64,000 bases of DNA from Devosia sp. XK-2 (GTDB lineage Bacteria; Pseudomonadota; Alphaproteobacteria; Rhizobiales; Devosiaceae), in the NCBI RefSeq assembly GCF_037113415.1, contig NZ_CP146608.1:3567001-3631000 (forward strand), in the 5' to 3' direction. The notes under the pieces were generated by a model. It did not search any database. It worked only from the letters and a program-made list of their open reading frames with translations, and was not told the origin of the DNA. Position 1 is the first letter of the stretch. Every line of letters begins with the position of its first letter. Below are positions 10,748-30,845 of the stretch, in pieces. The position numbers and the translations under genes are program-made.

Positions 10748-10770
10748 AAACCGCCCTATATGGGCGGTTT
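10748..10770. terminator. Bidirectional hairpin between convergent holA and parB
   Basis: Stem AAACCGCCC (10748-10756) and GGGCGGTTT (10762-10770) with loop TATAT; A-run on the left, T-run in the right arm, so it can act on both strands. Its last four bases are also the first four of the parS-like site at 10767-10780. Confidence 0.7.
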
Positions 10771-10780
10771 CACGTGGAAC
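10767..10780. other. parS-like site GTTTCACGTGGAAC
   Basis: 13 of 14 bases match the parS core. Intergenic between holA and parB, overlapping the right arm of the terminator hairpin. Confidence 0.7.
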
Positions 10781-10798
10781 AGCTTTAAATTCAGCGCC

Positions 10799-11683: not shown

Positions 11684-12484
<801 letters not shown>

Positions 12485-12502: not shown

Positions 12503-13150
12503 CTAACGCATTGTTTTTCGGCGTAGATTCATAATCTCAACGATCACGCCGCTCGGATCGGTATCGCTTTTGCTTATTAGCACGTCATGGTGCCATTGCG
12601 CACCCGATTCCGTTAGCTCTTCAACATGTTCCCGCCCCTTATGCAGCAAGGCGCGGGTTTTCGGTCCAAAGAAAGGCGCCATCCACTCACATAATTGCGG
12701 CATGGCAGCCAAGGCCCGGGACGTGATGACATCGGGAAAGCCTGTTTCACGTGAATCAATTTCGTCGCTGCGCCGGCCGATAACCGTGACATCAAGCGCC
12801 AGTTCGCGGGCGACGGTGCGCAGGAAGCTGACCTTGCGCGCCGTTGGCTCCACCAGAACGAAACGCCGATCCGTGCCCTTGCTGCCGATTGCCAGCGGCA
12901 GTGCCGGGAAACCGCCGCCACTTCCCAGATCCAGAAATAGCCGATCCTCCGCCCCGGTCAGCGTTAAAACCTGCAGACTGTCGGCAAAATGGCGGGTCCA
13001 GACCGCACTCAATGTTTCACGTGAAACCAGATTCTGCACACCCTGCCATTTAGCCAGCAGTTTGGCATAGGATTCCAGATCGCGTCCGACCTCGTCCAGC
13101 GGCCTGGAGAAAGCGGCGGTATAGGGCGCTATCGCGCTATAGTCGGCCAT
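12503..13150 (-). CDS. rsmG: 16S rRNA (guanine(527)-N7)-methyltransferase RsmG (GidB)
   Basis: 215 residues. S-adenosylmethionine-dependent methyltransferase acting on G527 of 16S rRNA; loss gives low-level streptomycin resistance in several bacteria. The SAM motif is DLGSGGGFPALPLA (74-87), with VEPTARKVSFLRT after it and SRALAAMPQLCEW in the catalytic part. Its ATG overlaps the mnmG TGA. Two parS-like sequences lie inside the gene, at 12744 and 13014; both encode the tripeptide Ser-Arg-Glu, so the protein accommodates them. Confidence 0.95.
   Translation of the reverse strand: MADYSAIAPYTAAFSRPLDEVGRDLESYAKLLAKWQGVQNLVSRETLSAVWTRHFADSLQVLTLTGAEDRLFLDLGSGGGFPALPLAIGSKGTDRRFVLVEPTARKVSFLRTVARELALDVTVIGRRSDEIDSRETGFPDVITSRALAAMPQLCEWMAPFFGPKTRALLHKGREHVEELTESGAQWHHDVLISKSDTDPSGVIVEIMNLRRKTMR
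12744..12757. other. parS-like site GTTTCACGTGAATC inside rsmG
   Basis: 13 of 14 bases match the core, and it is the reverse complement of GATTCACGTGAAAC found elsewhere. The coding strand reads Asp-Ser-Arg-Glu-Thr. Confidence 0.7.
13014..13027. other. parS site GTTTCACGTGAAAC inside rsmG (perfect)
   Basis: All 14 bases match the canonical parS core palindrome. It lies in rsmG at the Val-Ser-Arg-Glu-Thr codons, about 6.5 kb from the putative oriC. Confidence 0.85.
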
Positions 13151-15012: not shown

Positions 15013-15046
15013 GGCAATTTCTCCGAGGCGTCTGACATAAGCCAAT

Positions 15047-15060
15047 GTTTCACGTGAATC
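15047..15060. other. parS-like site GTTTCACGTGAATC
   Basis: 13 of 14 bases match the core. It lies 34 bases upstream of the mnmG start, in the 93-base mnmE-mnmG gap, 47 bases from a second identical site. Confidence 0.75.
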
Positions 15061-15093
15061 AATTGTCGATGCCGCCACCGCGGCAATAAGAAT

Positions 15094-15107
15094 GTTTCAC
15101 GTGAATC
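15094..15107. other. parS-like site GTTTCACGTGAATC at the mnmE stop
   Basis: 13 of 14 bases match the core, identical to the site at 15047. Its last two bases fall in the mnmE stop codon. Confidence 0.75.
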
Positions 15108-16398
15108 ATTTGCCGATGCAGAAACTGGCAAAAAGCCGGTCCAGCACCCTCTCCGCATCCAGCCGGCCGATCAACCGTTCAAGCGCCGCCGATGCGCGTC
15201 TCAGGCTTTCGGCTGCCAATTCCCAATTGCCCAGCTGGTTGCGGCATTCGGCCAAAGCATCAAGCGCCGCCGTCAGCGCGGCGCTATCCCGTGCGTGGCT
15301 GACAAGCGCCGGCTCGCCGCCTGCCATATCCGCACCAAGCTCGGCCAATCGCGCAACGAGCGCCGAGAGGCCCTGCCCCGTTTCGCTGGACACCAGCAAA
15401 TCGCATTCTGTGGCCGAGCCGAGATCGGCTTTGGTGCCGATAGTCAGGAGCCGCCCCTTTGTCTCCGGCCTTGTGTCATCGTCAATGTCCGCGGCCCGAA
15501 GCCAGAGCACGATGTCGGCCTCATTTATGGCCTTTTGTGCACGGCGCACGCCCTCTGCCTCGGCCCGGCTGTCGGTGTCGCGCAGGCCGGCGAGATCCAG
15601 AAGGATGAACAATTGTCCGCCAATATCGAGCGGCACTTCGCGCACATCGCGGGTCGTGCCCGCCTCGTCCGAGACGATGGCAATGTCAGAGCGGGAAAGC
15701 GCGTTGATCAGACTGGACTTGCCGGCATTGGGTGGTCCGGCCAGGGCGACGCGAATGCCCTCACGCACGATACGTCCGGATTCAACAGAGGCCAGCGCCG
15801 TGGCAATGGCGAGCTCGAGTTCGGCCATTTGCACCTGCCAGCTTTGCGGCAAGTCCTGGGCAACATCGCCCTCATCGGAAAAATCAAGTCGCGCTTCGAT
15901 CTCAGCGCGCAGATCGAGCAGGATATCGCGCCAATGATCAATTTCCTGCGTCAGGCGGCCGTCATAGCGTGCCAGCGCCTGCTGCCGCTGCTTTTCCGTC
16001 TCAGCCCCTAGAAGATCGCCCAACCCTTCGATTTCGACCAGGTCCAGCTTGCCATTTTCAAAAGCGCGACGGGTGAATTCCCCGGCTTCGGCCAGTCTTA
16101 GACCCTGGTTCCGCAACTCGGCCAGAATGGCCTTCACCCCAGCCGGCGAGCCATGCACATGGAGCTCGGCGCAGTCCTCGCCGGTAAAGCTGTTGGGTCC
16201 TGGAAAAAAGACGACCAGCCCCTGGTCGAGCCGTTTGTTGCGGCCAATATGGCGCAGGCTCATCTGCCGGGGTTTCGGAACGACCCCGGCAAGCTGCTGA
16301 AGCGCCGGTTGCACCAATGGGCCTGAGAGCCTGATAACGGCCACACCTGCCGGCAGGGAGCCGGAGGAGAGCGCCATGATCGTGTCGCCCGCCTGCAT
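15106..16398 (-). CDS. mnmE: tRNA modification GTPase MnmE (TrmE)
   Basis: 430 residues. Works with MnmG in 5-carboxymethylaminomethyl modification of U34. The N-terminal folate-binding domain contains FTGEDCAELHVHGSPA (71-86) and EAGEFTRRAFENGKLDL (104-120). The inserted G domain has Walker A GPPNAGKSS (221-229), TTRD (249-252) and TKAD. The protein ends in the family's FCIGK, whose cysteine is conserved. G3 reads DLAG (268-271) where DTAG is usual. The gene lies in the ori-proximal block rho-mnmE-mnmG-rsmG-parA-parB. Confidence 0.96.
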   Translation of the reverse strand: MQAGDTIMALSSGSLPAGVAVIRLSGPLVQPALQQLAGVVPKPRQMSLRHIGRNKRLDQGLVVFFPGPNSFTGEDCAELHVHGSPAGVKAILAELRNQGLRLAEAGEFTRRAFENGKLDLVEIEGLGDLLGAETEKQRQQALARYDGRLTQEIDHWRDILLDLRAEIEARLDFSDEGDVAQDLPQSWQVQMAELELAIATALASVESGRIVREGIRVALAGPPNAGKSSLINALSRSDIAIVSDEAGTTRDVREVPLDIGGQLFILLDLAGLRDTDSRAEAEGVRRAQKAINEADIVLWLRAADIDDDTRPETKGRLLTIGTKADLGSATECDLLVSSETGQGLSALVARLAELGADMAGGEPALVSHARDSAALTAALDALAECRNQLGNWELAAESLRRASAALERLIGRLDAERVLDRLFASFCIGK

Positions 16399-18443: not shown

Positions 18444-19478
18444 TCATTCCGCCTTGACGATCTCGATCAGCCGCTCGACATGCCCGATCGGGGTTTCGGG
18501 TACGATCCCGTGACCCAGATTGAAGATATGCGGGCGATTCTTGAAGGCTGAAAGAATGGCGCGGGCCTGGCTTTCCATCGCCTCACCCCCCACGACCAGC
18601 CGCAATGGATCAAGATTGCCCTGCACCGGCAGGTCCGGGGGCAGATGGGCATTGACGAAATCGATGGGTGTCGAAAAATCGATGCCCAGTGCATTGACGC
18701 CGGTGGTCTCGGCAAAGTGCCGGAGATTACCCGCCGCGCCGCGGGGAAAACCGATCACCGGCGCATTGGGCACACGCTGGCGCAGGCCCTCAACGATACG
18801 GCGATTGGGCTCGATCACCTGCCGGGCAAAACTGGTATCGTCCAGATTGAGCGCCCAGCTTTCGAAAAGCTGCACCACATCGGCGCCGGCCTCGAATTGG
18901 GCCGCGAGGTAATCGATGGACGTTTTCACCAGCACATCGATAAGCCTGTCGAAAGCCTTGGGATGTTCCAGCGCAAACCGCCGGGCGGTCCATTGATCGG
19001 CCGAACCGCGTCCACCCAGCATATAGGTGGCCACGGTCCAGGGCGCGCCGCAAAAGCCAATCAGGGTTTTTTCGGGCGGCAGCGCGGCGCGCAGGCGCCG
19101 CAGCGTTTCAAAAACCGGAGCCAGATGCTCCAAGGCCCGTGCTCCATCCAGCCGATCGATGGCCTTCTCGTCCAGCGGCTCGAGCAGGGGCCCCTCCCCC
19201 GTCGCGAAACGCACGCTTTGGCCCAGCGCATCGGGAATGACCAGAATATCGGAAAACAGGATTGCCGCATCGAGGTCGAAGCGCCGCAACGGCTGTAGCG
19301 TCACCTCGACCGCGAGTTCGGGCGTGTAGCAGAGCTCGAGAAAGTTCGCTGCCTTCGTGCGGGTCTCCCGATATTCGGGAAGGTAGCGACCTGCCTGGCG
19401 CATGATCCACATCGGGGGACGCTCCTGGCGCTGTCCTAGGACAGTGGCCAGAAGAGGTTTGTGCGGCACTGGAGCCAT
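18444..19478 (-). CDS. hemE: Uroporphyrinogen decarboxylase
   Basis: 344 residues. Decarboxylates the four acetate side chains of uroporphyrinogen III to give coproporphyrinogen III. The active-site signatures are WIMRQAGRYLPEYRETR (24-40) and GFCGAPWTVATYMLGG. The DILVIPDALGQSVRF substrate Asp region and the C-terminal FNLGHGIVPETP are also present. In Caulobacter, Rickettsia and rhizobia hemE flanks the chromosomal origin, and here it borders the 440-base AT-richer gap at 19479-19918. Confidence 0.96.
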   Translation of the reverse strand: MAPVPHKPLLATVLGQRQERPPMWIMRQAGRYLPEYRETRTKAANFLELCYTPELAVEVTLQPLRRFDLDAAILFSDILVIPDALGQSVRFATGEGPLLEPLDEKAIDRLDGARALEHLAPVFETLRRLRAALPPEKTLIGFCGAPWTVATYMLGGRGSADQWTARRFALEHPKAFDRLIDVLVKTSIDYLAAQFEAGADVVQLFESWALNLDDTSFARQVIEPNRRIVEGLRQRVPNAPVIGFPRGAAGNLRHFAETTGVNALGIDFSTPIDFVNAHLPPDLPVQGNLDPLRLVVGGEAMESQARAILSAFKNRPHIFNLGHGIVPETPIGHVERLIEIVKAE

Positions 19479-19918
19479 GGAGTCATCCCTTCCAAAACCC
19501 TAAAAAGAGTCTTTCTTGCTTCGCTTCTTTATCTTTATGGCGGTGTTTAGCTGGAATTCCTCTGGACCCACAATCGCGTCCCGAAGTGACACTTGCGCGC
19601 AGCCTATGGTTAACAGCTTGTGAATTGTCCGCAGACCTTACCAAAGTCTTAACGACAGCCCATTCGTTAATGAAAGGTTAAACAGGCCTATGCCGAGTCA
19701 ATGATTCGATTCCGGGTGTGGATGAGCCTGCGAATATCTCGCGCTGCCCTCATCGCGCTTTCCCCACTGCTTTTCACAGCCCCCCATCGGCCAGCGCTGA
19801 AACCAATTGTTAACAAATTCGAAGCGAGGTCGAATAAACCGGGCGTGCCGGCAAACTTGTCAGAGCAAGCCACAGATCGTCCTTGAGCTGGGGATGACAG
19901 TGTGGAAAAACTTGGCCC
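19479..19918. other. Putative chromosomal replication origin (oriC)
   Basis: A 440-base gene-free gap between divergent hemE and maf, locally AT-richer than its surroundings. A perfect CtrA-type box, TTAATGAAAGGTTAA, lies at 19667-19681, and a near match TTAA-N7-TGAA at 19610-19624. DnaA-box-like sequences are TGTGGATGA at 19717-19725 and TGTGGAAAA at 19901-19909, each one mismatch from TGTGGATAA. Weak-box-like TCCCCA is at 19761-19766 and, reversed, 19889-19894. Known: hemE flanks oriC in several alphaproteobacteria. Genes on both sides read outward. The assignment is inference from motifs plus synteny. Confidence 0.75.
19667..19681. promoter_or_regulatory. CtrA-type box TTAA-N7-TTAA in the putative oriC
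   Basis: Exact TTAA, seven bases, TTAA. In Caulobacter, CtrA bound to such sites in the origin blocks DnaA-driven initiation. The role here is inferred. Confidence 0.6.
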
Positions 19919-20521
19919 ATGCTCATTCTTGCTTCCGCCAGTTCGACCCGCAAAGCCTTGTTGCACAAGGCCGGATTGCACTTTGCCGTCCATCCGGCGA
20001 CGCTCGATGAACGCACGCTCGAGCAGGACGCTCTCAATGCCGGCGGCGATGCGCGCGACATTGCCCTGTTGCTTGCCAGGTTCAAGGCCGAGACCGTGTC
20101 GGCTAGCCATCCGGGCGATCTGGTGATCGGCGCCGACCAGACCCTGGCGCTGGGCCTTGAACTTTTGCACAAGCCGGCCACACCCGATGACGCGGCCGCC
20201 CAGCTCGATCATCTGCGCGGCAAGACCCATCGCCTGCATGCCGCCGTCACCCTGGTCAGGGATGGACAATTGCTTTGGTCCGATCTGCAGACGGCCGAGC
20301 TGACCATGCGCGATTTCTCGATGGAGGAGCGGACCTCGATCATGAAGCTCGAAGGGAAGGCCCTGCTCAATTCGGTCGGCAGCTATCGGCTCGAAGGGCC
20401 GTCCATTCGCCTGTTTGAGACCATCACCGGCGACTATTTCACCATTCTCGGCCTCCCCCTGCTTCCCCTTCTGGCGGCCCTGCGCGATATCGCGCCCGAC
20501 CTTCTGAATTTCCAGGATTGA
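19919..20521 (+). CDS. maf: Maf family nucleotide pyrophosphatase
   Basis: 200 residues. Maf proteins hydrolyse nucleoside triphosphates, often modified or non-canonical ones, to monophosphates. The signature ILASASSTRKALL (residues 3-15) and the catalytic GADQTL region (near residue 73, E/D-type metal site) are present, and a SVGSYRLEG loop occurs near residue 150. The ATG at 19919 is the first codon after the putative origin, and aroE begins three bases after its TGA. Maf next to oriC is a conserved rhizobial arrangement. Confidence 0.9.
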   Translation: MLILASASSTRKALLHKAGLHFAVHPATLDERTLEQDALNAGGDARDIALLLARFKAETVSASHPGDLVIGADQTLALGLELLHKPATPDDAAAQLDHLRGKTHRLHAAVTLVRDGQLLWSDLQTAELTMRDFSMEERTSIMKLEGKALLNSVGSYRLEGPSIRLFETITGDYFTILGLPLLPLLAALRDIAPDLLNFQD

Positions 20522-30120: not shown

Positions 30121-30845
30121 TCCTCTTCCCTGCCATCGACCTCAAGGATGGCCAATGCGTGCGTTTGAAGCTCGGCGACATGGATCAGGCCACCGTCTTC
30201 AATGACGATCCGGCTGCGCAGGCAAAGTCGTTCGAGGACCAGGGATTCGAATATCTCCACGTCGTCGATCTCAACGGCGCCTTTGCCGGCGAAAGCGTCA
30301 ATGGCGCGGCCGTCGAAGCCATCCTGAAGACGGTCAAATTTCCGGTGCAGCTGGGCGGCGGCATCCGCAATCTGACCCATATCGAGAACTGGCTCGACAA
30401 GGGCCTGGCCCGCGTCATTCTCGGCACCATTGCCGTGCGCGATCCTGCGCTGGTCAAGGACGCCGCAAAGAAGTGGCCCGGCCAGGTCGCGGTAGGCATC
30501 GATGCGCGCAAGGGCATGGTGGCCGTCGAGGGCTGGGCCGAAACCTCAGAGCTTTCGGTGATCGAGCTGGCCAAGCGCTTTGAGGGCGCGGGCGTCGCTG
30601 CCATTATCTATACCGATATCGATCGGGATGGCGTGCTCGCCGGGATCAATTGGAGTTCGACCCTGGAGCTGGCGCGGGCGACGTCGATCCCGGTCATTGC
30701 CTCGGGCGGCTTGGCGTCCATGGACGATATCGAGCGCATGACGCGGCCCGAATACCAGGTGCTCGAAGGCGCCATTTCCGGCCGGGCGCTTTATGACGGG
30801 CGCATTGATTCACGTGAAGCACTGGCCAAATTGAGGGCGGCATGA
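30117..30845 (+). CDS. hisA: Phosphoribosylformimino-5-aminoimidazole carboxamide ribotide isomerase HisA
   Basis: 242 residues from GTG 30117, which overlaps the hisH stop (GTGA); GTG 30108 is possible but adds only residues not conserved. (Beta/alpha)8 barrel isomerase. [16 protein letters not shown] (2-17) carries the catalytic Asp; [18 protein letters not shown] and the phosphate loop [10 protein letters not shown] follow. A parS-like sequence lies inside its last codons at 30807. It overlaps the next gene by four bases. Confidence 0.96.
30807..30820. other. parS-like site GATTCACGTGAAGC inside hisA
   Basis: 12 of 14 bases match the parS core. It lies at the Ile-Asp-Ser-Arg-Glu-Ala codons near the end of hisA. 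Confidence 0.45.

Follow-up and report, generated by a model that had tools for sequence, protein, structure and literature searches.

The chromosomal origins of S. meliloti and other Rhizobiaceae are presumably located at hemE, and the origin of E. coli, oriC, has the sites of Dam methylation (GATC) concentrated within it. The criteria for a Caulobacter-type origin, as set out in PMC1914354, are hemE on one flank, sites for CtrA, DnaA and IHF, COG1806 on the other flank and no second intergenic region with a comparable number of sites; the same source gives a length of 404 bp for the origin of Caulobacter crescentus, Cori, and predicts origins for Wolbachia, Ehrlichia, Anaplasma and Rickettsia. 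GANTC sites are reported in the Caulobacter origin and its relatives (PMC3973325). As regards CtrA, the literature describes an S. meliloti origin free of CtrA motifs and of CtrA binding (PMC4433202), a B. abortus CtrA that does not bind its own origin (as stated in PMC2877005) and CtrA binding adjacent to the origin in Hyphomonas (PMC7200025). Among papers judged by their title and the start of their abstract, we found none on the replication origin of Devosia.

In this work, we analyse the intergenic region between hemE and maf in the single-contig genome (3,800,999 bp, 3.80 Mb) of Devosia sp. XK-2, a member of a genus of soil bacteria; the window, that is, the whole stretch of DNA analysed, comprises 64,000 nucleotides (bases 3,567,001–3,631,000), and positions below refer to it unless given as genome coordinates. 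A preliminary description made from the letters of this stretch had predicted that replication starts in this region. The prediction is supported by conservation, by a cluster of parS-like sites, by an antipodal terminus and by DnaA boxes that are enriched ahead of hemE in 68 loci from outside the Devosiaceae, and the sequence evidence indicates that this Devosia chromosome very probably has its origin in the hemE–maf gap. This would place the probable replication start for the genus and adds one more member, new though not surprising, to a class of origin already known, the extra being a well-defined layout of CtrA-type and GANTC sites.

Position, flanks and conservation of the hemE–maf gap

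The putative oriC is a gene-free gap of 440 bp that spans exactly 19479–19918 (3.587 Mb in genome coordinates), with flanking genes facing outward, just as first described. On one side lies hemE, encoding uroporphyrinogen decarboxylase (18444–19478, minus strand; profile match of 392 bits against a cut-off of 303), and on the other a gene for a maf-like nucleotide pyrophosphatase (19919–20521, plus strand), whose best match is to a Maf-like family but scores under the families' curated cut-offs. As expected of a hemE-linked alphaproteobacterial origin, the gap is directly upstream of hemE and richer in A+T than the genome (49% compared to roughly 38%; that is, 51% G+C compared to roughly 62%). 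Further genes on the hemE side are hemJ, rho, mnmG, rsmG and a ParA-family gene, together with an open reading frame between rho and mnmG (15106–16398) that we take, from its place, to be mnmE/trmE; on the maf side, maf is followed by aroE, and two more genes there are, from context, presumably coaE and dnaQ.

We collected 30 same-genus loci, our own included, out of 37 matching same-genus genomes. The gap measures 431–442 bp in all 30, and even the least similar ones, only 54% identical to ours, keep its length and the order of its elements. A second collection consists of 80 named loci, grouped after the titles of their records, of which 79 were usable for the 450 bp upstream of hemE; at least two species of its Devosiaceae are also among the 30 same-genus loci.

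Compared with Cori, the gap has a similar length and shares the hemE neighbour, DnaA boxes, TTAA-N7-TTAA, GANTC sites (PMC3973325) and an A+T content above that of the genome. Unlike Cori, it contains one perfect CtrA site rather than five, has no match to the exact IHF consensus WATCAN5WTR on either strand, and lies roughly 215 kb from dnaA, which is on the maf side outside the window. Judged against the strict Cori-type criteria, CtrA sites are present, whereas an IHF site and a COG1806 flank are absent; the gap is a member of the broader class of hemE-linked alphaproteobacterial origins and not of the strict Cori type, and in all likelihood it works like Cori. The predicted origins of Wolbachia, Ehrlichia, Anaplasma and Rickettsia share with it the hemE flank, DnaA boxes and CtrA sites (0 to 7 of them) but are much more AT-rich and have an IHF site and a COG1253 or COG1806 flank (PMC1914354). 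S. meliloti and other Rhizobiaceae belong to the same order as Devosia, and Rhizobiaceae-like loci likewise have DnaA-type boxes and an enrichment of GANTC upstream of hemE. The maf-side position of dnaA recurs in all 11 other Devosia genomes searched, at distances of roughly 155–506 kb obtained by subtracting positions.

The other flank is maf in Devosia and COG1806 in Cori. Elsewhere in the order, other families have a DUF299 gene placed between their origin and maf: 13 of 16 loci carry its SD[AS]TGET signature there, and one more has a variant of the signature and a PF03618 match at that place in its genome, while the remaining two have a short hemE–maf gap without a DUF299 gene (these 16 are the loci in which hemE and maf were both located; in the set of 24 order-level genomes, hemE went unmatched in one, and seven hemE loci had no reachable maf). 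The corresponding family, PF03618 (DUF299/COG1806 kinase-phosphatase), was found in five of five genomes of other families searched but had no match in any of the 27 Devosia genomes searched. The hemE–origin–maf order is thus most simply explained by the loss of the DUF299 gene in the Devosia lineage, with the origin left in place.

The repeats of the gap amount to two weak direct families, its single-strand DNA fold shows no excess of structure (z = 0.60), and no Rfam family matches between 17000 and 22000 at E values up to 1. One block, ATGGCGGTGTTT (19537–19548), is kept in the Devosiaceae origins that were read but seldom seen outside them: with up to two mismatches allowed, it occurs in all 11 Devosiaceae loci, in 6 of the 68 others and in 2 of 158 control windows; to our knowledge it matches no known site.

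DnaA boxes, CtrA-type sites and GANTC sites

The preliminary description listed two DnaA boxes matching at eight of nine positions. Both are present, but only the one on the maf side is well conserved: TTTTCCACA (19901–19909, minus strand) has this form in 29 of 30 gaps and the form TTATCCACA in the thirtieth, and it starts 18–19 bp before the maf ATG in all of them, whereas the DnaA-like box TCATCCACA (19717–19725, minus strand) recurs in only 6. Weak boxes of the TCCCCA type, also claimed, were found at 19761 and 19889, the former (19761–19766, plus strand) kept in 27 of 30 gaps and the latter, TCATCCCCA (19889–19897, minus strand), exact in 22. To estimate background frequencies we used about 1.25 Mb sampled from the same genome, with 20 kb counted twice and the gap included. 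DnaA boxes with at most one mismatch average 0.034 per 440 bp of this sample, and two or more are reached in 14 of 10,986 sliding windows, of which at least four lie over the gap itself; the TCCCCA-type boxes are less special, with two or more in 209 of the 10,986. The scan, made motif by motif over roughly one third of the genome, shows other windows with as many copies of a single motif as the gap has. As expected of a hemE-linked origin, DnaA boxes are present beyond chance and conserved, through the terminal box. They are also among the most enriched words within 600 bp upstream of hemE in the 68 non-Devosiaceae loci, and DnaA-type boxes occur in the 450 bp upstream of hemE in 11 of 15 Rhizobiaceae-like loci. 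Separately, the words TGTATCAG/CTGATACA and TTCTTAGA, which are not DnaA boxes, are strongly enriched upstream of hemE in the same set (20 and 16 of 68 loci, respectively).

A perfect CtrA-type site, TTAA-N7-TTAA, lies where it had been reported, at 19667–19681 (plus strand), is intact in 29 of 30 same-genus gaps and in these is 177–189 bp from hemE. With 22 such sites in 3.80 Mb, a stretch of 440 bp should contain roughly 0.0025; reversing the pattern as a control gives 21 sites, so that the motif is not enriched genome-wide and the case for it rests on place and conservation. Over the 30 gaps, 42 sites were observed compared to 0.1 after shuffling. A degenerate site, TTAA-N7-TGAA (19610–19624, plus strand; seven of eight positions), begins 57 bp before the perfect one, and its TTAA half is intact in 27 of 30 gaps; at this place, 56–58 bp nearer hemE than the main site, 13 of 30 gaps have a second perfect site, from which our own genome is one letter short. 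A further TTAA half-site, within TGTTAAC (19810–19813, plus strand), is unchanged in 29 of the 30 gaps. CtrA itself has a clear ortholog in this genome (425 bits against a cut-off of 350, the next best match reaching 184).

In the second collection, perfect CtrA sites occur upstream of hemE in 11 of 11 Devosiaceae loci, compared to 1 of 15 Rhizobiaceae-like, 0 of 20 Bradyrhizobium-group, 0 of 9 Sphingomonadales and 5 of 24 other loci. Since the S. meliloti origin has neither CtrA motifs nor CtrA binding (PMC4433202), the parallel with rhizobial origins fails to carry the step to CtrA control. The same report, the statement that B. abortus CtrA leaves its origin unbound (PMC2877005) and the scarcity of perfect sites in the Bradyrhizobium-group, Rhizobiaceae-like and Sphingomonadales loci would all fit an origin on which CtrA is inactive in Devosia as well, the TTAA motif being inherited or serving the expression of hemE or maf. 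We consider this unlikely, since the site persists in 29 of the 30 same-genus gaps and perfect sites occur in all 11 Devosiaceae loci of the second collection, and a second one stands at a fixed spacing in 13 of the 30. Taken together, the counts and the literature make Devosiaceae origins look Caulobacter-like rather than Rhizobium-like as to the CtrA site, and the conservation of the motif suggests that CtrA may place the origin under cell-cycle control. An origin CtrA site conserved in Devosiaceae, though S. meliloti is without one, makes it testable on which branch of the Hyphomicrobiales CtrA acts, or stopped acting, directly on replication.

The gap also contains five GANTC sites, which were not in the earlier list, compared to 0.42 expected from the 1.25-Mb sample; five are reached by only 9 of the 10,986 sliding windows, at least two of which lie over the gap itself. 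Two of them pair up in the centre as GAGTC-N3-GATTC, a doublet whose first base is 28 bp past that of the CtrA site (19695–19699, exact in 29 of 30 gaps, and 19703–19707, exact in 27). The other three are beside the doublet (19708–19712, exact in 14), near hemE (19507–19511, exact in 23 and within eight columns in 29) and at 19480–19484, the last not conserved (1 of 30). A central GANTC-N3-GANTC doublet is found in 27 of 30 gaps and stands 27–29 bp from the CtrA site in 26. In total, the 30 gaps hold 176 GANTC sites (3 to 9 each), compared to a shuffle mean of 51 and maximum of 69. This corresponds to a density of 5.90 per 440 bp, whereas the flanking sequence of these loci has 0.38 (a roughly 15-fold difference) and shuffled gaps have roughly 1.7. 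In the second collection, the density upstream of hemE compared to the rest of the loci is 5.9 and 0.8 in Devosiaceae, 5.1 and 1.0 in Rhizobiaceae-like loci, 5.8 and 0.95 in Sphingomonadales, 2.8 and 0.8 in the mixed rest, and 1.0 and 0.6, thus little enriched, in the Bradyrhizobium group. One RAMA-domain protein in the genome scores over the cut-off, and its open reading frame (378 amino acids) has a DPPY motif; a RAMA domain with a DPPY motif is the build of CcrM, and the genome thus has a methyltransferase gene of the CcrM type. The likeness to E. coli oriC, where methylation sites are likewise concentrated in the origin, is one of analogy only; the methyltransferase and the timing differ.

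It is a distinct possibility, although not the reading we expect to hold, that the gap is the origin while its GANTC sites are passive and CcrM has no role in initiation: Caulobacter lacking ccrM has, in minimal medium, a wild-type-like DNA content profile by flow cytometry (PMC3973325). The same paper cites extra chromosome copies on CcrM over-expression, and the roughly 15-fold density over the flanks, the doublet in 27 of 30 gaps and the excess of GANTC that Rhizobiaceae-like loci and Sphingomonadales also show ahead of hemE speak for an active role of the sites. The regular CtrA–GANTC layout is a compact target for asking whether CcrM methylation times the origin.

parS-like sites, strand composition and the terminus

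As expected around a hemE-linked origin, parS-like sites cluster near the gap. All eight in the genome (at most two mismatches; one match for the control pattern) lie between 46 kb on the hemE side and 49 kb on the maf side, and five of them are 4.6–8.9 kb from the gap on the hemE side. Those in the window are at 12743–12758, 13013–13028, 15046–15061 and 15093–15108 with one mismatch each, and at 10766–10781 and 30806–30821 with two. The ParA-family ATPase gene (11684–12484, minus strand), beside rsmG and mnmG, scores under its family's curated cut-off and is named by context; it is the probable chromosomal par locus. Across 14 Devosia genomes we found 7–11 parS-like sites each, with none for the control pattern among the matches listed, and in the seven of these 14 for which sites were listed in full, all 67 are within 65 kb of the hemE gap.

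Cumulative GC skew had been proposed as a check on the origin. Strand composition does change near the gap, but not at 3.587 Mb: the best break in GC skew is at 3.529 Mb, the positions on that side that fit to within 4 chi-square units spanning 3.343–3.531 Mb, and the fit is worse by 9.8 units at the gap and by 36.6 at 3.674 Mb, all of these, like the octamer intervals below, being rough because the sampling has holes, bins are autocorrelated and chi-square is inflated. Sampled GC skew means are −0.055 and −0.019 on the two sides of the gap; the sides thus differ, yet each arm carries an excess of C on this strand, and the raw cumulative curve has no clear minimum. We thus discarded raw GC skew as a pointer to the origin, as we did AT skew, which is weak and ambiguous (R2 of 0.05). 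A net strand bias of the same sign, in hemE–maf orientation, is seen in the three other Devosia genomes sampled (G010, G029 and G016). The difference in GC skew between the two sides of the gap has the sign of our own genome in G010 and G029 and is slightly opposite in G016, and it is not significant in any of the three (20 samples each). Local GC skew at hemE was compared for those 63 of the 80 named loci that extend at least 5 kb to either side; it is higher on the maf side in 17 of 17 'other', 7 of 7 Sphingomonadales, 9 of 12 Rhizobiaceae-like, 7 of 18 Bradyrhizobium-group and 0 of 9 Devosiaceae loci, counts that are not independent because the loci share gene order.

Octamers of the form GGGNAGGG are polarized, with 34 on the plus and 125 on the minus strand in sampled stretches of the hemE arm and 180 and 96 in those of the maf arm, and the arms have opposite polarity also in all three other Devosia genomes. 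From this polarity we infer that GGGCAGGG is likely to be the KOPS of Devosia; GGGGAGGG, with little polarity (24/23 and 60/45), was left out of later KOPS-like counts and of the fit. A fit with two breaks places the terminus switch at 1.628–1.712 Mb, which brackets the antipode of the gap at 1.686 Mb. The terminus can be bracketed only, since neither an E. coli-type dif consensus nor the same with a free centre gave a match. Near the terminus switch, at genome positions of roughly 1,729,387–1,729,636, four DnaA-type boxes, one of them perfect, occupy a 250-bp stretch that is partly coding, which could be chance or a DnaA-titrating site.

The break on the origin side falls at 3.672–3.680 Mb, roughly 86–93 kb past the gap on the maf side. 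In the stretches read between the gap and +92 kb, one KOPS-like octamer is on the plus and 15 on the minus strand, which is the polarity of the hemE arm, and the 40 kb next to the gap on its maf side have plus/minus counts of 0/10, 0/4 and 2/8 in G010, G029 and G016. Within 10 kb of hemE, 5 of the 11 named Devosiaceae loci are minus on both sides and 3 plus on both, the remaining 3 being uninformative on at least one side; over the 80 loci, the sign is equal on both sides in 31 of the 34 that are informative on both, and it varies by lineage. Aligned over the window, 11 of 25 octamer positions are conserved in the three other Devosia genomes, so that inertia explains part of this same-sign polarity near hemE. 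The E. coli K-12 oriC was of little use as a control, with 4 octamers in the surrounding 40 kb, too few.

This persistence of hemE-arm polarity up to 3.672–3.680 Mb favours an account in which the gap is merely the divergent hemE/maf promoter, with CtrA and CcrM sites timing both genes, and replication starts at another place, such as 3.67–3.68 Mb. However, nothing origin-like was found at the switch: three stretches read in 3.64–3.70 Mb contain seven DnaA-like boxes that are scattered rather than clustered, lack TTAA-N7-TTAA and nowhere exceed 46% A+T over 300 bp. GC skew rejects 3.674 Mb harder than it does the gap, the parS-like sites cluster at the gap, and a search of 19400–19960 for terminators and for sigma-70-like promoters, the one promoter type covered, found none. 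We regard this account as very improbable and retain the gap as the origin because of its conservation, the parS-like sites and the symmetry of the terminus, although the composition signals fall on either side of it. The offset switch cautions against locating such origins through strand composition alone. A further proposal, which we rate as doubtful, is that Devosiaceae keep a rigid Caulobacter-like DnaA/CtrA/CcrM origin while the polarity flip of the FtsK-orienting, KOPS-like octamers reflects segregation and replication axes that are offset; if true, much of the parS zone would lie between the two axes, and the octamers of the maf flank near the origin would be directed back at it. The three Devosiaceae loci with plus polarity on both sides of hemE speak against the generality of such an offset.

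A model for initiation at the gap

We propose, with high confidence in the explanation as a whole, that the gap is an oriC opened by DnaA, silenced by phosphorylated CtrA and marked by GANTC methylation. DnaA would bind the conserved boxes on the maf side (19889–19909) and the weaker ones further inward, and part of the gap would be opened; forks would depart both ways and meet near 1.63–1.72 Mb. In cells not meant to replicate, phosphorylated CtrA on the central TTAA-N7-TTAA and the surrounding half-sites would keep the origin silent. The GANTC doublet 28 bp further on would become hemimethylated as the fork passes and be remethylated by CcrM late in the cycle, and in its hemimethylated state it could label a freshly fired origin.

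The region upstream of ctrA itself (517 bp, genome positions of roughly 2,950,483–2,950,999) has no perfect TTAA-N7-TTAA; it contains eight TTAA half-sites and four GANTC sites, which would fit an autoregulated, methylation-timed ctrA, as expected.
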